NCBI RefSeq assembly: GCF_003815875.1
Contig: NZ_CP033924.1
Coordinates: forward strand, 1,240,001-1,304,000
Direction of reading: 5' to 3'
Source of the DNA: Chryseobacterium lactis
Lineage (GTDB): Bacteria; Bacteroidota; Bacteroidia; Flavobacteriales; Weeksellaceae
DNA length: 64,000 nt
Part shown: positions 17,112-63,200 of the stretch, one piece after another
How the letters are laid out: each line of letters starts with the position of its first letter
Position numbering within the stretch: the first letter of the stretch is position 1
The notes under the pieces: model-generated
Databases searched by the model: none
What the model saw: the letters and a program-made list of their open reading frames with translations, nothing else
Told to the model about the DNA's origin: nothing
Program-made: the position numbers and the translations under genes

Positions 17112-17774
17112 ATGTTATCTGAAGAATATAAAAGAGTAGTAATTCTACATGCATTCATTAATGAAGAAAAGCATCAGGATCTTTTAGACAGATATTTAAA
17201 TGCATTTTCTGAAGATTTTAAAGCGAATATTCTTAAGTACAGAAGATGGCAGGATGCTCAACTTTCTCTACTGGGGAGGATCCTTTTGCGGCATGGTTTA
17301 AATACCTACTTTCATCTGGCAGAATTTGAAGTTTGTACATCATCTAATCATAAACCCTATTTAAAAGAGAACCCGGTTTATTTTAATATATCGCATTCCG
17401 GGGATCTTGTAGTGTGTGCAATTGCTCAGTTTCCCATAGGAATTGATATTGAATTTTTAGACAGGAATATTAATTATCTCGATTTCCGATTTCAAATGAC
17501 GACGAATGAATTTGAGGAAATTCAACATGCTGAAGATAAAATCGGGAGTTTTTTTACATATTGGACGAGAAAAGAAGCCGTTATAAAGGCTCATGGTGAT
17601 GGGATGATGATTCCTTTGAATTCTTTTGAAATTTTAAATAATGAATGTGAAATTGATGGAAATAAATTCTTTATAATGGATGTTCTTGTGGATAATAATT
17701 ACCAAATTAGTCTGGCGTCTACAGATAAAAATATTAAAAATATGGTACCTTTTTTTGTCCCTTATAAAATTTGA
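17112..17774 (+). CDS. 4'-phosphopantetheinyl transferase, Sfp type
   Basis: This 220-residue enzyme transfers phosphopantetheine from CoA to the serine of carrier domains. Motifs in order: RRWQDAQLSLLGR near residue 44, YFNISHSGDLVVCAIA near residue 90, the Mg-binding IGIDIEF near residue 112, and FFTYWTRKEAVIKAHGDGM near residue 144. Length and motifs fit the Sfp/Gsp group (AcpS is about 120 residues). It lies 3.4 kb upstream of the giant NRPS and faces the same way, so it is the likely activator of that enzyme's twelve carrier domains. That pairing is inferred from position. Confidence 0.92.
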   Translation: MLSEEYKRVVILHAFINEEKHQDLLDRYLNAFSEDFKANILKYRRWQDAQLSLLGRILLRHGLNTYFHLAEFEVCTSSNHKPYLKENPVYFNISHSGDLVVCAIAQFPIGIDIEFLDRNINYLDFRFQMTTNEFEEIQHAEDKIGSFFTYWTRKEAVIKAHGDGMMIPLNSFEILNNECEIDGNKFFIMDVLVDNNYQISLASTDKNIKNMVPFFVPYKI

Positions 17775-21160: not shown

Positions 21161-24100
21161 ATGAAGCTAACACCATACCAATCAACATTTTATCATGAAT
21201 GGATACTGCATCCATCCAGAAGTGACTACAACATTATTTTTGATCAGTCCATGTCAGGGCATCTGAATATTCAAAGATTGAACGAGAGTTTAGTCAGATT
21301 TGTAAACAATAATTTACTCGTAAACAGTAATGTTGTAAATGAATCAGGAGATTTGTTTTGGAGACACAGACCATTGCTTTCCAAAGATGCTCAAATACTG
21401 AATTTCATTGCTCAGGAACCAAGTGACGAAGAAGTATTAAAGATTGCCTTACAACCTTGTGACCTTGAAAAAGAACTGCTTGCAAAGTTTTATGCGATTA
21501 AACAAAATAACGGAGATCATAGGATTATTTATATTATTCCTCATATTCTTTTGGACGGATTAAGCATTGATCAGATGTGCGAAGAATTAAGTCTGTATTA
21601 TAATGACCCGAATTATAAAAACAGGTTTGATCTTACGGAACAAAAGCAATTACACGAAAAACTAAGCGAAAGTCTGGATGCTACTTTACATCATCATGGA
21701 ACAGAGATGAAAAATTTCTGGAGTGATTATATGCAGGGTGTTGAAAATATTGATCTGAATTTTTTAAAAGGTGGTAAGTCTTCTCACTTCAAACCCAATG
21801 ATAGTAATATCCCATCAATATCTGAGTTTCGGTTTACCTTTTCTGACCTGGTATTTGAGAAATTAAAACAACTAAATCAGAGTTTTCAGCTCACGCCTTA
21901 CACCTTTGGAAAACTGGTATTTGCGATAATATTGCATAGAATTACAGGGATTGATGATTTAGCAATTAGCTATCCAATCGGAATTAAGGAAGGTAAAGAT
22001 TTTATTTTTGGCTCCCATGTCAATACGATCTTAAAAGTATATAGATTTACCGCAGATACGAAGCTTGAAGATATTATTAACGAGAATATAGCTCACCTTC
22101 AGGAATCCAAAGTTAATAAAGCAAAATATCTTCCCATTGGAGATTTAATCAGATATACTCCGGGATTGAATGTTTTCGAACTTGCATTTATTCAAACCAA
22201 CCTTAAAGACGGGGCAATTCAGTATGAAGGAATCAATCATTGTACAATTAACAAAGAACTGAATGTTGATCTGGTCGGGAAATTATTGTTTGAACAGGAA
22301 ATAAAGAATGAACAACTCAACTATAGAATTAAGTTCAAAAATGATGAACTTGATCAGGAGTTGGTTTTCAATTTTGCCAATATGTACAAAAGAGTATTCA
22401 TTGAGGTTCTGGAAGATCTGTTGAAAGGGAATTCAGATAAATTGATCACTCAATATGAACTTTTGACTCAAGACACCCATGATGTTATAGTAAATGCCTG
22501 GAATTCAATTGGATTAAATGATCAGTCCATAAAAACTCTTCATAAACTTTTTGAAGAACAAGTTGTAAGAACACCAGAAGCTATTGCTTTGGTTTATAAG
22601 GATGTTAAATTAACCTATAAAGAGCTTAATGAGCGTTCAAACCGCTTAGCAAATTATTTAATTAAAACCCATGGGTTGCAACCGGATGATTTAGTTCCAT
22701 TGTATCTCGACCGGTCAGAAAATATGCTGATCGCGATTTTAGGAGTCTTAAAATCCGGAGCAGCTTACGTTCCGATGGATCCTTCTTATCCTGCAAATAG
22801 AATAGAACATATTATTCAGGATACCGGAGCTAAGGTGGTACTCGCAGAAGAAAATACAATAGAAAAACTGAATCAACTTTCTGTAGAGCCGGTTTCTTTA
22901 AATGGACTGAGATTCTGTGAAGTTTTAAAACAACAGGAATCAACCAACCCTTCTACTGAAACCAACCCAACCCATTTGGCTTATGTCATTTATACCAGTG
23001 GAACGACAGGACTCCCAAAAGGAGTAATGGTAGAGCATAAAAGTGTTGTAAGTGTACTGGATAAGGTAAGGGAAGCTTATGGTTTTTCGGAAGGTGAAAG
23101 GATTACTGCTTTTACTTCCTATGTTTTTGATGTATCAGTATCAGAGTTTTTTAACACGTTATTGTACGGAAATGAGCTTCACCTTTTAGATGAGGTTACA
23201 AAAAGAGATGCTGAGGCAATAAGCAAATATTTGTTAATCAATGAGATTGCTTATGCCTATCTTCCGCCGGTGATATTATCTGTTTTGCCACGTGTAGATT
23301 ATCCTTTGTTGAAAGGACTTCTCTATGCCGGAGAGCCTTGTGATTATGAAACCGGAAAATACTGGTCGGAAAATAAAATAGTATATAATCTGTATGGCCC
23401 TACTGAAGCCACGATCTATGCCACATACAAAAAGATAGACCGGGGAGATGTTCACTTAATTGGTCGTCCTGTCGAAAACAGTTCTGCTTACGTATTGGAT
23501 GCTTCACATCGTTTACTACCTGTTGGAGCGGTAGGAGAGCTTTATTTGGGAGGTACAGGTATTGCCAGAGGATATTTGAACCTTCCCGAACTTACCAGAG
23601 AACGCTTTATTGACAATCCTTTTCAAACGAATGAGCAGAAAGAAAAAGGAGAGAATGGCCGGCTATATAGAACCGGAGACCTGGTACGGTGGCTTTCGGA
23701 TGGAAACATAGAATATTTCGGAAGAAATGATTTCCAGGTAAAAATACGGGGGTATAGAATAGAGCTGGGAGAGATTGAAAACAGACTTTCACAGTTTCCG
23801 AAAGTGAAACAATCTGTAGTTCTCGCCAAAGAGAATGCTGCCGGGATGAAATATCTGGCAGGTTATTATGTTGCTGAAGAAAAGATAGAAGCTGAAAAGT
23901 TAACAGATTATCTGTCTGAAGCTTTACCTGAATATATGCTGCCGGGAGCTTTTGTACATTTAACTGCCTTGCCACTGACAATAAATGGGAAGTTGGACAG
24001 AAACCAGCTTCCTGAACCGGAATTCACTGAAAATAGAAAATACACAGGACCAGAGAACGACCAGCAGCAGAAACTCTGCAGGATTTACGGAGAAATTCTG

Positions 24101-24290: not shown

Positions 24291-27200
24291 AAGCTCTATT
24301 GCATGCTGTAAAAGTATCTTCTCCGGAAGAACAGCGTTTGTCATTTGCACAGGAAAGGCTTTGGTTTATAGAATCTTACGAAGGAGGTAGCAGCGCTTAT
24401 AATATTCCCATGATTTTTAAACTCAGAAGACAGCTTTCATTAGATCTTCTTCAAAATGTGTTTGAAAAACTAATGCAACGTCATGAAGTATTGCGAAGTA
24501 TTATTCTTACCACTGAGGAAGGAGTAGGATATCAGGTTGTTACAGATCAGAAACTTCATATTCATTGTATTCATGCCAATTCCAGGGAAGAGCTTGAACA
24601 GGTAACGGATCAGGCAGCCGGTAAAATCTTCAGTTTAAATGAGGAACTTCCGATACATGTCAATGTTATACAATGGGAAGATCAATACTATTTGTCGGTG
24701 GTGATTCATCATATTGCTTTTGACGGATGGTCTACAGAAGTCTTCATTAAAGAATTTAATACAATTTATCAGGCTCTTGAAGAAGGAAGAAATATTGAAC
24801 TCCCGGAGCAGGCGTTTCAGTATAAAGACTTTGCATTATGGCAGCGAGATTATCTTTCCGGGGAGATTCTTGATCAGCAAATATTGTATTGGAAAAGTAA
24901 GCTCGAAGGTTCTCATACGCTGGATCTTCCTTTAGATTGTAAGAGACCTACCCATATTTCCTATGCGGGGGCTACAACCTATTTTGAGGTGCCTTCAGTT
25001 CTCGCTTCGGATTTAAAAAAGCTTTCTAAAGATCTTGAAATAAGCCTGTACAGCATCATGCTGAGCGGGTATTACCTGATGCTGTCTGCCTACTCAGGCC
25101 AGGACGATATTGTGGTTGGAAGTCCGGTTGCCAACAGACACCACGCCGGCCTTGAAAATATGATCGGTTTCTTTGTCAACACCTTAGCTTTAAGAGAACA
25201 AATACATCCGGAGCAAGACATAAAAGACTTTATTCTCCAAGTATCACAGTCGGTGACGGAAGCTCAGTCTCATCAGGATCTTCCTTTTGAAAAATTAGTG
25301 GAAGGACTGGGAGTTGAACAAGATACATCAAGACATCCTGTATTCCAGGTTATGTTTGGAATTCAAAGTTTTGAAGCAGAAATACATTCCAAAAATGATA
25401 AAGCAATCCTTCTTCCTTTTGACGGAGATATAGATTATAAATCAGCAAAGTTTGATCTGACCATGATAATCGATGATCATGGGGAAAAAGTTCGGGGAAT
25501 CTTTAATTATGCCGTTTCTCTTTTCAGTTTTGAGACCATTTTGAGGATGAAAGAGACGTATCTGCTCATTCTGAAGCAGTTCGTTGAAATTGGAGTTTCA
25601 AAAAATACTAAGATTAATACTCTTCGTTTTTTAGAAGAAGAAGACTATAAAAAGATAACTGAGAATTGGAATCAAAATGAATCTTCATATCCTGAAGGAT
25701 TTACCATTCATCAATTGTTTGAAAATCGGGTAACAAAGTCTCCTGATGCTACAGCGTTGGTCTATCAGAATACCAGGCTTTCTTATAACGAATTGAATGA
25801 AAGAGCCAATCGTCTTGCAAATTATCTGATCAGAAAATATCATCTTCAGCCTGATGACCTGGTTCCTTTATGTCTCGATCGTTCAGAAAATATGCTTATT
25901 GCCATCCTGGCCGTTTTGAAAGCAGGAGCAGCCTATGTTCCAATGGATCCATCATATCCTGCAGAAAGAATAAGTCATATTTTGAATGATACTAATGCAA
26001 AAATAGTCATCACAGGAGAGACTTTGATAGATGATATTTCACAAGAAAATGTAGATATTATTTCTTTAAATGATTTGTCATTCAGAACAATTCTTGAAAA
26101 GGAAGATTCTCATGATCCAACTACAACGGTTACTTCCAATAACCTTGCCTACGTCATCTATACCAGTGGGACGACCGGTATGCCTAAAGGGGTTATGATA
26201 GAACATAAAAATGTAGTCAATGTCATTTCCCAGATCAGAGTGGCCTATGGGTTTAGTGAAGGAGAAAAGATAACCGCTTATACCTCTTATGTATTTGATG
26301 TATCTGTATCAGAATTTTTCAATGCGTTGTTGTACGGAAATGAGCTGCACCTTCTGGAAGAAAGCATTAAAAAAGATGCAGATTCTATAAGCCATTACCT
26401 TTTAAAACATAATATTGCGTATACCTATCTGCCGCCGGTAATGCTTTCTGTTCTGCCGCGAATAGAATATCCTGCGCTCAAAGGAATCTTATATGCCGGA
26501 GAACCTTGTGATTTTGAAACCGGAAAATACTGGTCGGAATATACATCCCTTTACAACCTTTACGGACCTACAGAAGCTACCATTTATGCAACCTATAAAA
26601 AAGTGGAACACGGTGATGTACATCTGATTGGCCGTCCCATAGGGAATACTTCTGCTTATGTGTTGGATAGCAGCCATCGTCCGGTTCCTGTTGGAGCAAT
26701 GGGGGAACTTTATCTTGGAGGAAACGGAATTGCGAGGGGATATTTAAATCAACCGGAACTTACTGCCGAACGTTTCATTGCAAATCCTTTTCAATCTGCA
26801 ATACAGGGAATGAGAGGAATAAATAGCAAGCTGTACAAAACCGGTGATCTTGTTCGCCTCCTTCCGGATGGAAATATCGAATATATAGGCAGGAATGATT
26901 TTCAGGTTAAAATCAGAGGCTACCGCATTGAATTAGGTGAAATAGAAAATAAATTGCAGCAGCATATTGCAATACAACAAGCGGTTGTACTTGCTAAAGA
27001 AAACAAAGCAGGAATGAAATTTCTTGTCGGATATTATGTATCTGATACAACGATAAGTGAAGAAAATCTCTCTGCATTCCTGGCCAAAGTTGTACCGGAT
27101 TATATGATTCCGGCTGTATTTGTGCAGCTTGAAAATATTCCGTTAACGATTAACGGAAAACTCGACAGAAAAGCTCTTCCGGAGCCGGAATTTACCGGAA

Positions 27201-54200: not shown

Positions 54201-57200
54201 TTTTCAAGTTTGAAAATCGTTATTACCTTTCAGTGGTGATTCATCATATTGCCTTCGATGGATGGTCTACGGACATCTTCCTGCAAGAAGTAGCAACGAT
54301 TTATGATAGGCTATCCGGAAAAGAAGCACCGGAATTACCGGAATTAAAATTCCAGTATAAAGATTTTGCATTATGGCAGCGTAATTATCTTACGGGAGAC
54401 CGCCTTGATCAACAGATTAAGTACTGGAAAAATAAATTTGACAACTTCGAGAATCTTGACCTGCCTGCCGATTTTCAAAGACCACCTCAAATATCTTACG
54501 AAGGCGAAAATCTATATTTCAGCCTGAATAAAGAGCAAGGCGAAAAGCTGAGATCGCTTTCCAAAGATCTTGGTGTAAGTCTTTATACGGTAATGCTAAG
54601 CGGGTATTACCTGATGCTCTCCGCCTATTCCGGGCAGGATGATATTGTGGTGGGAAGCCCTGTTGCAAATCGTCATCATGCCGGTCTTGAGAATAGTATT
54701 GGGTTCTTTGTCAATACTTTGGCTTTGAGAGAGAAAATCAATCCTGTACAAACTATCAGAGAATTTATTGTGCAGGTTTCCACATCAGGTACGGAGGCTC
54801 AGGCTCATCAGGATCTTCCTTTTGAGAAGTTGGTGGATGAACTTGGCGTAGAGCAGGATACCTCAAGACATCCTGTGTTCCAGGTAATGTTTGGTCTTCA
54901 GAATGTTGAAGGTGAAACAAAGGATCATGGAGAAATATTATTCTATCCTTTTGATGGTGAGCTAGATTATCAGGTAGCCAAATTTGACCTGACGACCATG
55001 GTAGATGATGACGGAAAAGGAATTAATGTCATGTTCAATTATGCAAAATCTCTGTTCAGAAAAGAAACCGTCATTCGTATGGCAGATTCTTATCAGCTTT
55101 TCTTAGATCAGATGATACAAGGCAATGCCGCTGGCAGTATGACTCTGATTTCCGAAAAAGAAACTCAACAAATTATAAATGATTGGAATAATACACAGCA
55201 AGAATATCCAAAAGAACTGACTATTCATCAACTTTTTGAAAGCCAAACGAAAACAACTCCTGACCAAACCGCTTTGGTATACCTGGATACAAAGCTTTCT
55301 TATCGGGAGTTAAATGAAAGAGCCAATCGTCTGGCTAATTATCTGATTGAAAAATATAATCTTCAGCCTGATGATCTCGTTCCAATATGTTTAGAACGCT
55401 CTGAAAATATACTTGTAGCAATGCTTGCTATATTAAAATCCGGAGCGGCGTATGTTCCAATGGATCCGTCGTATCCGTCAGACAGAATACAGCATATTTT
55501 AACGGATACCTCAGCCAGAATTGTTCTTGCACAAAAAGGCTCTGTTGATAAAATAGGAACGGAAAACGTTGAGGTTCTTTCCTTGGATGATGTTAATCTT
55601 AAAGCAGCACTTGAAATAGAAGCCTCTTATAATCCTGTTACAAAGGTACATTCACGGAATCTTGCCTATGTGATTTATACCAGTGGAACAACCGGGCTGC
55701 CAAAAGGCGTAATGATAGAGCATTCAGGAGTCATAAATCTCATTGGATCAATGATCAATGCTCACCGACTTCAAGAATATAACGAAGTGGGATGCTATTC
55801 CAACTATGTATTCGATGCTTTTGTATATGAAGCTTTTTCAGCCTTGTGTAATGGTAATACCTTATGGTTGTACAGCAATGAAATCAGAACATCAGTCAAT
55901 GATCTTAATGATTATATTAAAGAAAATAAGATTGAGGTTTCCTTTATTCCACCTGTATTATTGAGAGAAGTTGTAGAGAGTGGAACAAGTCTGAAACTGA
56001 TTTTTGCCGGTGGAGAAAGTTTCCCTGCTTTACGCAAAAAAATAGAAAATATTATATTAATTAATGAATACGGTCCTACGGAAGGTACCGTGTGTACCAC
56101 TCTTCATCACTATAAAGATGATCAGAATCCACTGAATATTGGTGCTCCGATTGCCAATATGACGACTTATGTTCTCGATCATTATTTACGCCCTGTGCCG
56201 GTAGGTGCGGTAGGAGAGCTTTATATCGGAGGAGCAGGAGTTGCCAGAGGCTATCTGAACCGTCCTGAGTTGACCGAAGAACGTTTCATTAGCAATCCAT
56301 TCCAAACTGTAAAAGGGGGAAATGCAAGATTATACAAAACCGGGGATTTAGTACGCTGGTTACCAAATGGAGAACTTGAATATGTGGGAAGAAACGATTT
56401 CCAGGTAAAAATTCGGGGGCATCGTATTGAATTGGGTGAGATTGAAAATACCTTGCTCAATTATCCCGATGTTCGTCAGGTGGCAGTATTGGTACAAGAA
56501 AACAAATCAGGATTGAAATATCTTGCAGGCTATTATGTTTCCGATAAAGAAATTGAACCGGGATTGCTTTCAGAACATCTTTCAGCATCTCTTCCCGAAT
56601 ATATGGTTCCCGGAGCTTTTGTACATTTAACAAGTTTACCACTAACGATCAATGGTAAATTAGACCGAAGAGCTCTGCCTGAACCTGATTTTACAGGAAA
56701 TAAAGAATATGCTGCCCCGGAAACGGAACTTCAGAAAAAACTTTGCCGAATTTATGGTGAAGTATTAGGATTGGATACGGAAACAATAGGGATTTATGAT
56801 GATTTCTTCCGACTTGGAGGCGATAGTATCATCAGTATCCAGCTTGTAGGAAGAACCAGACAGCAACTGGAAGTAAAATTAAGTGTTAAGGAAGTCTTTA
56901 CTTCCCGAACAGTTGCTTCATTAGCTCTGGCTATTGAAGAGAAAAAAGATAATTCAGAAACTCATATTCTGACCGAGCAGGGAATACTAACAGGCGAAGT
57001 TCCTTTCCTTCCTGTCCAGGAATGGTTCTTCAGCCAGAAAGAACAAGGGTATCTGAAGGATTTCAACCACTGGAACCAGGCATTCCTGATCCATGTTCCA
57101 CAGCTGAATCCGGAATATTTAGAAAGGGCAATACAATTATTGGTGGAAAGGCATGATGCTTTCAGACTCTATTATCCTAAAACAGAAGGAAGATACGGAC

Positions 57201-60200
57201 AGGAATATAGAGAAAACACTTCTTATCAGGAAATCTCCTTCCTTGATATATCAGGAGCGGATCAGGAAGCAATTTCCCAACAATTGACAAAATGGCAAAA
57301 CAATTTTAATATAGAAAATGGACCATTATATCATATTGGTTACATCAATGGTTATCCTGATGGAAGTTCAAGAATTTTCTTTGCCCTTCATCACCTTATT
57401 ATCGATGCGGTAAGCTGGAGAATTATTACCGAAGATCTTAAAAATATGTACCGATCTGTTGAAAATGGAGAAATTGAAAATATTCGCTCCCACAGCAAAG
57501 GAAGCAGTTATCGTCAATGGGTCAATGCTGTAAAAAGCTATAAATCTGAAGATAAAGAATCGAGAGAAAAGGAAATAGCCTACTGGAATGCAATCACAGA
57601 CATTGTAGAAGAGAACAATAGTCTCCTGACTTCATTATCCGGCTCTGAATCTCATCATGGACACTTTATTCTCGATAAAGAAACAACAGAGAAATTAATC
57701 AGAAAGACCCATCATGTGTATCAAACCCAGATCAATGACTTATTGCTGTCGGCATTATCTTCTGCATTGACAGATCTAAATGGGAATACCAAACATGCCA
57801 TTTTATTAGAAAGTCACGGACGGGAAGAAGTCTTCGGAAATCTGGATATTACCGAAACTGTAGGCTGGTTTACCACCATGTATCCACTATTACTGGAAAC
57901 AGGTGAAGATGCAAAAGACACTTTAATTTTTACCAAAGAATCCTTGAGAAATATTCCTGATAATGGGATTGGATATGGCAGCCTTATAGGATATGTAGAT
58001 CGTTCTCTTCCAAAGATCAGCTTCAACTATCTGGGGCAGCTGGATCAGGAAGAAACAAAAGGTGAAAAAACCTGGTTTATTGCTGCTGAAGACTGCGGTT
58101 CAGGAGTTGGAAGCAATAACCGGGACGGCCATCTGATCAGTATCAATGGTGCAGTGGTTGATGGACAACTTCGGTTTGGAATATCCGGATATTTGTCTGA
58201 ATCACAGGTTTTAATGTTGTCAGAAGATTTTAAAAAACATATTGTTGCGATCACCAACTACTTGTCCGAAGAAACAAGAAGTTATCTGACACCTTCAGAT
58301 GTAGATCATATTGTCGACAATGACCAGCTGCAGCATATTCAGGAATCGGGAGAAATAGAAGGCGTATACCTGGCAAACAGTTTACAGGAAGGGTTTGTAT
58401 ATCATGCTTTAAATCAGGGAGAGAAGGATGATGCCTACAGGGTACAGCTGATGTGGGATTACCATACTGAAATTAATCTGGAACACCTTCAGAAATCATG
58501 GAGGCTTACTCAAGATCATTATCCTTCTTTGCGATTAAGATTTGACTGGAATGGGGAAATCGTCCAGATAATTGATAAAGAAGGCCGTGTTGACTGGCGT
58601 TATAAAGATATCAGTCATCTCAATGAAGAAGAGCAGGAAGCTTTGATGACAGAAGTAACAGCTCAGGATCGTTTTGAAATCTATGATTTATCCAAAGGAA
58701 GTTTATTCAGAATTTATCTGTTTAAACGAAATGAAAAACAGTACAGCTGCTTATTCAGTAATCACCATGCCATATTGGATGGTTGGAGTATGCCTGTGAT
58801 ACTGAACGGAGTTCATGATACTTATCTTAACCTGATAAGAAATCAAGCTCCAAATCTGATAAAAGATGAAGCGTATCCTGTAAGTCAGAAATATCTTCAG
58901 AAACATAAAGAGAGCAGCCGTACTTTCTGGAATCAATATATGAACCTGCTTGAAAATCATGAAAACCTGGGCAATTTGGTTAAAGAAGAGCAAAAACAGA
59001 TTGATTTGAGCAATTATCGACATATAAAAGACCATCAGGTTTTACAGATGTCGATAACCGGAAACCAGTATCATCAATTGAAAAGCCTTACCCAGGAACA
59101 CGGATTTACAATAAATGCTGTTCTTCAGTATCTGTGGCATCAGCAGCTAAGTATTTATAACAGAACAGGAAACACGGTTGTAGGAACTACAGTATCAGGA
59201 AGAAGCTTGCCGGTAGATGGTATTGAGTCTTCAGCAGGTCTTTATATCAATACCCTGCCATTGATTGTTACCCATAAAGAAGGGAAGGTTGTAGATCAGA
59301 TCACAGAAATACAAGAGACAATCAGTGATCTGAATACCCATAGTGATATTAACCTTGCAGAACTTCATCATGGGGGACGCAGGATTTTCAGCAGTTTGTT
59401 TGTATACGAGAATTATCCTGTACCGAAAGGAGGAGACAGTAATGAACTTGGTTTTGTATTCAGGGATTCGGTGGAAAAACTCGATTATCCGCTAGGTATA
59501 ATGGCCTCTGAACAAGGCGATAAAGTGATCCTGAAAATCAATTATGAAGGTGATCTTTTTGAATCAGACATGATAGAACAATTGATACAGGGAATGTCAT
59601 TTGTGCTCAATCAGATTGTAGAAAATCGGAAGATTACATCTGAAGAAATTATATATGTTTCAGAAAATCAGTTTATTCTGATGCGAAATTGGGATAAATC
59701 TTCAGGTTATATTTTAGATGATTCCTATCGCTTATTACCGGTTGGTGCCGTAGGAGAACTTTATCTCTCTGAGGAAGATTATCTGAATCAAGCTGATATA
59801 AAATTAGAATACTTCATTATTAATCCTTTCCAAACTGCTGAAGAGAAAAATGAAGGAAGAAAGAGCAAGCTGTATAAAACAGGAGATCTGGCACGATACC
59901 TTCCGGATGGAAATATTCAAAACATGGGCAATGCTGATCTTCAGATGGAGATCAATGGGAAATCCTTAGATGAGCATGAACTTACCGAAGATCGGGAATA
60001 TGTAGCCGGAGAAAATGAGTTGCAACGGAAATTATCCCATATTTACGGAGAAGTGTTAGGAATTGCACCGGAAACAATAAGTATCCATGATGATTTCTTC
60101 AGATTGGGAGGAAACAGTATCATGGCCATTAAGCTGATCAGTAAAATTAAGCAAAAGTTGGATGCTCATGTTAATGTAGGGATGGTCTTCAACCATAAAA

Positions 60201-63200
60201 CAATCGCGTCCATGGCGAATGCGATGGGTGAAGAAAATATTGAGCAGATTGTTATAAATCCGGTAAAAGTCGATTCTCCTGAAAAACAGCGTTTATCTTT
60301 TGCTCAGGAAAGACTTTGGTTTATAGAATCTTATGAAGGTGGAAGCAAGGCTTACAATATTCCAATGACTGTTTTATTAGATAAGGAGTCTGATATTTCA
60401 CTTCTTTCTACTGCCTTTGAAGCTATCATCATGCGTCATGAGGTACTTCGTACAATGATTCATACCACAGAAAATGGGGTGGGTTATCAGGTAGTTACAG
60501 ACGTCGTGCCGGAATTTAGTATAATAGACGTAGAGACAAAAGAAGAACTCGAAGAATCCATAAACAAATGCGCCAATAAGGTTTTCCGTCTGAATGAAGA
60601 AATTCCGGTGAGTATTACTATATTCCGGCTGGGAGACGAACGTTACCTGTCAGCAGTTATCCATCACATTGCTTTTGACGGATGGTCTATTGACCTGTTT
60701 ATGCAAGAAGTTACCATAATCTATGATGCCCTTGTAAAAGGATATATGCCGAAACTTCCGGAATTAAAAATCCAGTATAAAGACTTTGCATTGTGGCAGC
60801 GTAATTATCTTACGGGAGAACGTCTTGACCGTCAGATTGAATATTGGAAAACCAGATTTGATGAGTACCAGAGTCTTAATCTGCCACTTGACTTCCATAG
60901 ACCTGCAGAGATTTCTTATGAAGGAGAAACGATTAATTTTAACCTTTCCGGAGATCTTGCAGAAATACTTAAAGAAGTCTCTCAAAACCTTGGTGTAAGT
61001 TTATATAGCGTAATGTTAAGTGGATATTACCTTATGCTTTCTGCGTATTCAGGGCAGGGTGATATTGTGGTCGGAAGTCCGATTGCCAATCGACATCATG
61101 CAGGTCTTGAGAATATGGTGGGATTCTTTGTGAATACGCTGGCATTGCGGGAAAAAATAGACACCAAACAAAGTATCAGAGATTTTATTATGCAGGTTTC
61201 AAATTCTGTGACAGAAGCTCAGTTACATCAGGATCTTCCGTTTGAAAAATTAGTGGAAGAGCTGGAAGTAGAACAAGATACCTCAAGACATCCTGTTTTC
61301 CAGGTTATGTTTGGTATTCAAAGTGCCGGAAAAAGCAAATCTTCTGCTCATGAGAATCTGACGATATTCCATTCTTACGATGGCGAAGTAAATTATCAGG
61401 CGGCGAAATTTGATTTGACTACCATGGTCAATGAAAGTCCGGAAGGAATACTGCTCACATTCAATTATGCAAAATCTCTGTTCAGAAAAGAGACGATCAT
61501 CCGCATGTCGGATTCTTACCAGTTGCTTCTAAGTCAGATGGTACAATCCGGTGTGTTGGAGTCAGAAAACACCGTAATTGGTGATCTTTCTCTGATCTCA
61601 GGAGAAGAGTCGAAACAGATTATAAGCACCTGGAATGCTACAAATAAAGAGTACCAGTTAGAAATGACGATCCATGCATTATTTGAAGATCAGGTTTTAA
61701 AAACTCCGGAAGACACCGCATTAGTCTATCAGAATATCAGGTTGTCTTACAGAGAATTGAATGAGAAATCAAATCGACTGGCCAATTACCTTATCAAAAC
61801 CTATCAGCTTCAGCCGGATGATCTGGTGCCATTATGTTTTGAACGTTCAGAAAATATGCTTATTGCGATGTTGGGGGTGTTAAAAGCCGGTGCAGCTTAT
61901 GTTCCGATGGATCCGTCTTATCCTGCAGATAGAATAAAGTATATTTTAGAAGATACAAAAGCAAAAATTGTACTGACTGAGCTGAGCACCGGAAATACAA
62001 TAAGAGAAACTGAAGTCATATTCCTGGATGAAATAAAAGAGGCCCTTGAAACATCAGATCCAAAGAACCCGGTTACCGAAGCGCGCTCAGAAAACCTTGC
62101 TTACGTAATCTATACCAGTGGAACAACAGGGCAGCCAAAAGGTGTGATGATTGAACACAAAGGTGTAATCAACCTTATCGAATCAATGACGGAGGCTCAT
62201 CGTCTTGATGAATACAAACAAGTAGGCTGTTTCTCAAACTATGTATTTGATGCCTTTGTGTATGAAGCTTTCCCTGCTTTGTGTAAAGGGAATACCTTAT
62301 GGTTATACAGTAATGATCTTAGAACCTCTGTAGCAGAACTTAATGAATATATTAATGAAAATAAAATAGAGGTCTCCTTTATTCCGCCTGTGTTACTGAG
62401 AGAGGTAATAGACCATGGAACGAATTTAAAACTGATCTATGCCGGAGGTGAAAGTTTCCCCGCTTTAGATAAAAATATAGAAAATATTACTCTGATCAAT
62501 GAGTATGGACCGACTGAGGGAACTGTTTGCGCCACTCTTCATTACTTTAAAGAAGATAGAAATCCGTTGAATATCGGAACCGCCATTTCTAATACCACCT
62601 TGTACGTCCTGGATGGTGATCAACGTGCTGTTCCTGTTGGAGCAATCGGAGAACTTTATATCGGCGGAGCAGGTATTGCAAGAGGATATCTGAACAGAGA
62701 AGACCTTACAGAAGAAAGATTTATCACAAATCCTTACCAGACGTTAGAACAGAAAGAAAGAGGCGAGAACGGACGTTTGTACAAAACGGGAGACCTGGTA
62801 CGCTGGTTACAGAATGGAGAACTTGAATATATTGGAAGGCAAGACTTCCAGGTGAAAATTCGGGGGTATCGTATCGAATTGGGCGAGATTGAAAATACCT
62901 TACTCAGTTATCCCGATATCCGCCAGGCAGCCGTGGTAGCAAAAGAGAATACAACTGGAATGAAATACCTTGTAGGATATTATGCTGCCGATCCGATGAT
63001 TGATCCACAATTGCTTTCGGATTTCCTGATGAGATCCCTTCCGGATTATATGATTCCGAATATTTTTGTTCATCTTGACCGTCTTCCGGTAACCATTAAT
63101 GGTAAATTAGATAGAAAACAACTGCCGGAACCTGAATTTACAAGCATTACAGAATATGCCGCTCCGGAAAATGCACTACAGAAACAATTGGCAGAAATCT

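Follow-up and report, generated by a model that had tools for sequence, protein, structure and literature searches.

How does a giant nonribosomal peptide synthetase (NRPS) fare with a module that has no adenylation (A) domain between its condensation (C) and carrier (T) domains, and does such a module still add a residue? The question is raised by module 11 of a 12-module NRPS of Chryseobacterium lactis, encoded in the window, i.e., the whole 64,000-nucleotide stretch of DNA that was analyzed (G000:C1:1240001-1304000; the genome comprises 5.62 Mb in one contig). In our judgment, the origin of an A-less module is usually visible only afterwards. Here, the state before the loss, represented by the A11 domain of 18 relatives, can be compared with the state after it, a changing remnant between two constrained domains. 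The case lends itself to a direct test of the distance over which an A domain of a giant synthetase can load a carrier not its own, a question of relevance to enzyme engineering, and it is a warning for prediction: residue counts derived from A domains alone may be one short.

The synthetase and its domain layout

The NRPS gene occupies the right two thirds of the window on the forward strand, from position 21161 to the window edge at 64000 and on to 64138, so that its final 138 bases lie beyond the edge. It consists of a single frame (14,325 codons and a stop codon), with a C-terminal thioesterase domain (63428 to 64000 and on to 64138, approximate start). The frame is open over its whole length, as the first-pass annotation had claimed, with no stop or frameshift across 43 kb. 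A phosphopantetheinyl transferase is encoded upstream (17112-17774), and a type II thioesterase, an MFS transporter and an AraC-type regulator downstream; a search of the genome for an MbtH-like gene found none. The gene contains 12 carrier motifs and 11 A3 motifs, the A3 motif being missing from module 11 alone. Judging by the 12 modules, the expected product is a 12-residue peptide.

The domains around module 11 are all on the forward strand. The A10 core (55235-56257) is followed by T10 (56699-56935, motif LGGDSI) and by the epimerization domain E10 (approximate boundaries 57008-58315), which is read directly in the sequence and contains the motif HHLIIDA, the same as in the orthologs. E domains are inferred after T3, T6, T8 and T10 because these carriers have the LGGDSI motif and the spacing to the next C motif is longer. 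C11 (approximate boundaries 58352-59650, motif HHAILDG) belongs to the E-following type: the stretch from C11 to T11 shares 60-61% identity with modules 4, 7 and 9, the C domains of which come after LGGDSI carriers and E domains, versus 27-31% with the remaining seven of the modules compared. C12 (approximate boundaries 60266-61570, motif HHIAFDG) bears the motif of the other C group, that of C domains not following E domains; we take the two groups to accept D- and L-donors, respectively. The last module continues with the A12 core (61682-62692) and T12 (63146-63379, motif LGGNSI).

What is left of A11

The first-pass annotation described module 11 as a module with C and T domains that has lost its A domain, with about 410 residues gone in two in-frame gaps. 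A Pfam search of module 11 detects Condensation and PP-binding and yields no AMP-binding match, and the A3 motif is absent. C11 retains an intact HHAILDG motif and C12 an intact HHIAFDG, and in T11 (59990-60223) the LGGNSI motif is intact, its attachment serine lying at 60116-60118. Module 11 therefore has the composition of an A-less module, i.e., intact C and T motifs without a functional A domain between them. Together with the preceding E domain, it comprises 1098 aa versus 1504-1523 aa in five orthologs, a difference of 406-425 residues that agrees with the earlier estimate. Alignment with the nearest relative (G083) refines the count of gaps to three, all in-frame and summing to 406 residues: a large one of 319 residues, beginning after the C11 linker and ending just past A5; one of 4 residues within A6, which the first pass had not listed; and a large one of 83 residues, from A8 to A10. 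The alignment is ambiguous as to whether the INGK beside the last junction originates from A8 or A10.

The approximately 100 residues that remain between C11 and T11 (59696-60001) match the A6-A8 region, corresponding to residues 357-444 of gramicidin synthetase 1 (1amu). Core 7 of this remnant, YKTGDL, is intact, and A6 and A8 are decayed; the decay of core 8, noticed already in the first pass, consists in the replacement of GRSDFQVKIRG, as found in G083 and G114, by GNADLQMEING. Structure prediction for C11-remnant-T11 gave a mean pLDDT of 61.9, with 26-46 in the remnant blocks, and the control, the intact module of G083 run with the same 16 rows, was equally low in A6-A8 (22-46), so the low values carry no weight for or against folding of the remnant.

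Loss of A11 in this lineage

A DNA search of the genus covered 173 genomes, with two candidate stretches scored in each. Matches at E<=0.001 were obtained in 34 of the 173, the genome itself included, and 19 others match strongly (E < 1e-100). Among the best 80 of 125 confirmed stretches, the relatives include C. phosphatilyticum ISE14, Chryseobacterium sp. PMSZPI, C. elymi, C. rhizosphaerae, C. shigense, C. jejuense, C. contaminans, C. pennae, C. pennipullorum and C. panacisoli. Module 11 is readable in 18 of the 19 strongly matching relatives, and all 18 carry A11, over the whole length in 17 and as far as core A8 in one (G016). Seven relatives were read by alignment (in G095 and G092, starting inside the module), seven from named records, and the other four as G039 and G100 in full, G016 to A8, and G164, in which the frame is broken within the module; G170 was left out of the count because the pieces used did not cover module 11. 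No single alignment spanning the junction was found in any other genome of the genus (173 genomes, two stretches scored in each), and no deletion shared with a relative was seen in the same search or among the 120 proteins listed of 2415 found. The comparison with orthologous genes, which the first pass had proposed as a check, thus identifies a loss and not an ancestral lack, given that all 18 readable relatives carry A11. At the level of sequence, these data show that A11 was lost in this lineage through two large in-frame deletions and one 4-residue deletion.

In three of the relatives, the orthologous NRPS is itself split into several frames, namely in G083 (L041-L043), G016 (L055-L057) and G164 (L155), through either sequencing error or real decay.

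Specificity codes at position 11

Specificity codes were read for A11 of 14 relatives: DVSYLALIY in eight, DVW(H/A)FSLVD, presumably a Ser-like code, in five, and DAYFIAEVC in one, a MAG relative. They come from anchored patterns and no curated predictor, with nine residues read and the tenth assumed, and some letters unread; for the DVSY-type A11, two scripts concur wherever both read letters. With at least three codes among 14 relatives (L050, L052, L069, L074, L085, L088 and others), position 11 is labile, a putative spot of A-core exchange. The commonest code, DVSYLALIY, is that of A1 (core 22550-23578) and A2 (core 25718-26746) of the C. lactis synthetase. DAYFIAEVC is the code of its A5, A10 and A12 (the fourth letter of A12 being F by the first script and I by the second), of which A10 is the closest A domain upstream of T11 and A12 the closest downstream. 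The A10 code differs from the A11 code of 13 of the 14 relatives coded. A literature search for three specificity codes returned no match.

Rates of change in module 11 and its neighbors

The rates were compared by counting private changes, i.e., residues altered only here at sites that are identical in G083, G114 and G158; for module 6, only two relatives were used, and G083 was left out because its gene is split there by a frame break. The remnant has 19 private changes at 61 sites; across the other 11 modules, the corresponding region has 29 at 774 (p=3.6e-11). The excess persists when the four residues beside the A6 gap are removed (15/57, p=2.8e-8). The changes are unevenly distributed, with two in the first 24 residues and most others near A6 and A8; possibly, the remnant is under some constraint, or surfaces without their former partners have been reshaped.

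The flanking domains, which the first-pass annotation had called intact, present a different picture. C11 has 28/285 private changes versus 269/2959 in the other C domains (p=0.67), and T11 has 2/52 versus 62/601 (p=0.22). C1 was excluded from the comparison as unusually divergent (117/317); its inclusion would only raise the C background. There is no clear acceleration in E10 (26/309 versus 104/970) or C12 (30/284, with 25.8 expected) either. Drift like that of the remnant would have given about 100 changes in C11 and about 19 in T11, and the one-sided 95% limits on such drift are at most 17% for C11, 7% for T11 and 20% for C12. Pairwise dN/dS with G083 is 0.31 for the remnant, 0.04-0.12 for the same region of other modules, 0.11 for C11 and 0.06 for T11, but these NG86 values come with synonymous sites near saturation in many comparisons, so the argument is carried by the private-change counts. 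As far as substitutions tell, C11 and T11 are shown to evolve like the domains of intact modules, under continuing constraint.

Proposed charging of the orphan carrier

The first-pass annotation listed loading of T11 in trans, skipping of the module and a stalled line as outcomes, without a choice among them. The contrast between a changed remnant and constrained C11 and T11 makes a dead synthetase unlikely and favors a working module 11. We consider it about an even chance that module 11 still adds a residue, with an A domain from a different part of the same synthetase charging T11. This domain, belonging to another module, would load T11 of its own chain or of a second copy of the synthetase; C11 would join the T10-borne peptide to the residue on T11, and C12 would continue as before, with the A6-A8 remnant serving at most as a linker.

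The main rival is that module 11 is skipped, T10 handing the chain on to C12, either directly or through thiol transfer across T11, to give an 11-residue peptide. A product shorter by one residue would explain the tolerance of the loss of A11. Skipping is clearly the less probable reading, although still a serious one, considering that C11 and T11 would be dispensable as catalysts and yet show at most 17% and 7%, respectively, of the drift of the remnant; that E10 is conserved; and that C12 retains the motif of C domains not following E domains although E10 follows T10. The point, made in the first pass, that C12 would face a D-residue donor if T11 were skipped appears sound; it depends on the D- and L-donor assignment of the C groups, which is taken from general knowledge of the family. 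Neither of the marks expected of skipping, relaxation of C11 and T11 or refitting of C12 to a new donor, was detected, but constraint on C11 and T11 could stem from folding alone and mask relaxation. Precedents for skipping are described in the portion of PMC5984369 available to us: a plipastatin synthetase from which A6 was removed makes module-skipping products, and the text names myxochromide S as a natural instance of skipping. The same portion reports a truncated product upon removal of A7, which is the outcome to be expected if the present line stalls, as a dying pseudogene not yet broken elsewhere or with release of truncated chains. A recent loss of A11 would leave little time for more damage, and the absence of junction-spanning alignments from the other genomes of the genus (173, two stretches each), together with the presence of A11 in the 18 that were read, fits such recency. 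Nevertheless, a stalled line seems a poor explanation: the excess change in the remnant implies that the loss is not very recent, and 43 kb have remained without a stop or frameshift while C11, T11, E10 and C12 change at the rate of their counterparts. The sole outlier domain outside module 11 is C1, in which dS is raised as well.

Two further possibilities are less probable still. Charging of T11 by a separate adenylating protein is very doubtful, although stand-alone loading is well known from syringomycin (SyrB1), ramoplanin and albicidin, as far as the part of PMC8949500 at hand describes them. Of the nine AMP-binding proteins outside the NRPS, two pass the amino-acid-adenylation cut-off, and the best NCBIfam matches of the other seven are acyl-, acetyl-, propionyl-, phenylacetyl- or succinylbenzoyl-CoA ligases. 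The two are a single-module A-T-thioester reductase (L151:9105-12212), about 103 kb downstream of the NRPS, and a Pls-type protein; each has its own carrier domain, neither is in the cluster, and no dedicated stand-alone A or A-T gene was found with the cluster, none of the nine AMP-binding proteins adjoining it. The reductase is present in four of the six relatives searched (77-85% identical in G083, G114, G158 and G032), all four with intact A11, and therefore was not gained; G092 has a 37% match only, and in G095 the matches are to NRPS modules only. Least probable of all is an assembly error, whereby an A domain present in the organism was collapsed. NRPS genes are repetitive and prone to misassembly, but there are two separate large in-frame gaps and a third small one, with private substitutions clustered between them. 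The whole remnant is matched by no other module, only parts of it having matches within the genome (two stretches of 132 and 83 bases, 74 and 72%), so it is not a copy of another module and a simple collapse between repeats is unlikely. In addition, the database protein P0001, which corresponds to residues 7751-14325 except for the start residue and is identical over 6575 aa, contains the same junctions; it belongs to a cluster of three member sequences that may be one strain, possibly the same as ours. In the search of 2415 proteins, P0001 alone covers the whole query among the 120 matches listed.

The Pls-type protein just mentioned is a Pls/PosA-family single-module NRPS (L152:8865-12848) that consists of A and T domains and a terminal domain with weak hexapeptide-repeat matches.

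Taken together, a stalled line would be relaxed everywhere and skipping would relax C11 and T11; neither is seen, which argues for T11 being still charged. The rates thus speak against stalling and favor loading in trans, with skipping kept as the rival. Since no dedicated loader gene was found, the A domains of the synthetase itself are the candidates: A1 or A2, whose code is the one most often found in A11 of the relatives, or, by closeness, the neighbors A10 or A12. That the loaders are specifically A1 or A2, located on the same chain at a distance of nine or ten modules, so that the residue was kept while about 410 residues were shed, is a tentative proposal that we hold to be somewhat improbable. 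T11 did not clearly converge on the T1, T2, T10 or T12 carriers when compared with G114 and G158: its identity to T1 is 0.63 here versus 0.68 and 0.82, respectively, a fall; to T2, 0.67 versus 0.65 and 0.63, and to T10, 0.54 versus 0.50 and 0.45, both a slight rise; and to T12, 0.56 versus 0.56 and 0.55. The span from A1 or A2 to T11 is 9-10 modules, whereas in the available accounts of the precedents the loader and the carrier are one to two modules apart or on separate proteins. Loading by A1 or A2, if true, would represent a natural step by which an A-less module arises, while sister species still carry the ancestral form intact.

Comparison with known A-less modules

The closest parallels to charging by another module's A domain are capreomycin CmnI and viomycin VioI, which have C and T domains without A. 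According to the part of PMC12400406 available to us, in E. coli CmnA-A1 loads CmnI, which has no A domain, and in vitro it loads the T domain of CmnI. Unlike CmnI, a separate protein of a multi-protein line, the A-less module described here lies inside one 12-module chain, and, unlike both CmnI and VioI, it retains an A6-A8 remnant, with the intact A11 persisting in sister species. Modules 4 and 5 of the fungal ferrichrome synthetase SidC are likewise A-less C-T modules within a large synthetase, and inter-modular loading has been shown: in the accessible portion of PMC10192304, loading by A3 is described for T4 in one construct and for T5 in a two-protein assay, T4 and T5 are loaded in the two-protein assays only with their C domains present, and A-domain loss or degeneration is invoked across the SidC family. 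In this fungal siderophore synthetase, as far as that portion describes it, the A-less modules come close after the loader, whereas here the nearest upstream domain, A10, mostly differs in code from the A11 of relatives. The orphan C and T domains of module 11 remain under selection, the signature expected of inter-modular loading of the CmnI/SidC type.

A C-T module without a working A domain is also shared with SyrE/SyrB1, ramoplanin and albicidin; these, in the section of PMC8949500 seen, employ a separate stand-alone A-T gene, and none is found beside the present cluster. Myxochromide S and plipastatin without A6 demonstrate that a line with a disabled module can go on, and for plipastatin synthetase without A6 or A7 the available text of PMC5984369 reports skipping or truncation and no trans loading. 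The plipastatin case is engineered, and in contrast to it C11 and T11 here show no relaxation. A literature search combining 'lacks an adenylation domain' and 'nonribosomal peptide synthetase' returned no matching paper, none of the titles on Chryseobacterium with NRPS and lipopeptides concerns this synthetase, and no like case was apparent by title among the matches listed. Loading of A-less modules by a different module has precedents in CmnI and SidC, and module 11 would be a newly evolved form of this arrangement.

Other unusual domains

The divergent C1 (21161-22600), with 117 of 317 conserved residues privately changed versus 22-30 of 262-343 in C2-C12, has both dN and dS high and retains the HxxxDG motif; possibly, a different starter C domain was imported.

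In G114 (Chryseobacterium sp. PMSZPI, L044-L046), module 4 contains an additional A core, about 450 aa long, with the code DFLCIGIVF. This core has a degenerate A8, is devoid of the C-terminal subdomain and directly precedes an intact A domain. It may be either a truncated A domain that was gained, a mirror image of what module 11 underwent, or a chimera produced by assembly.
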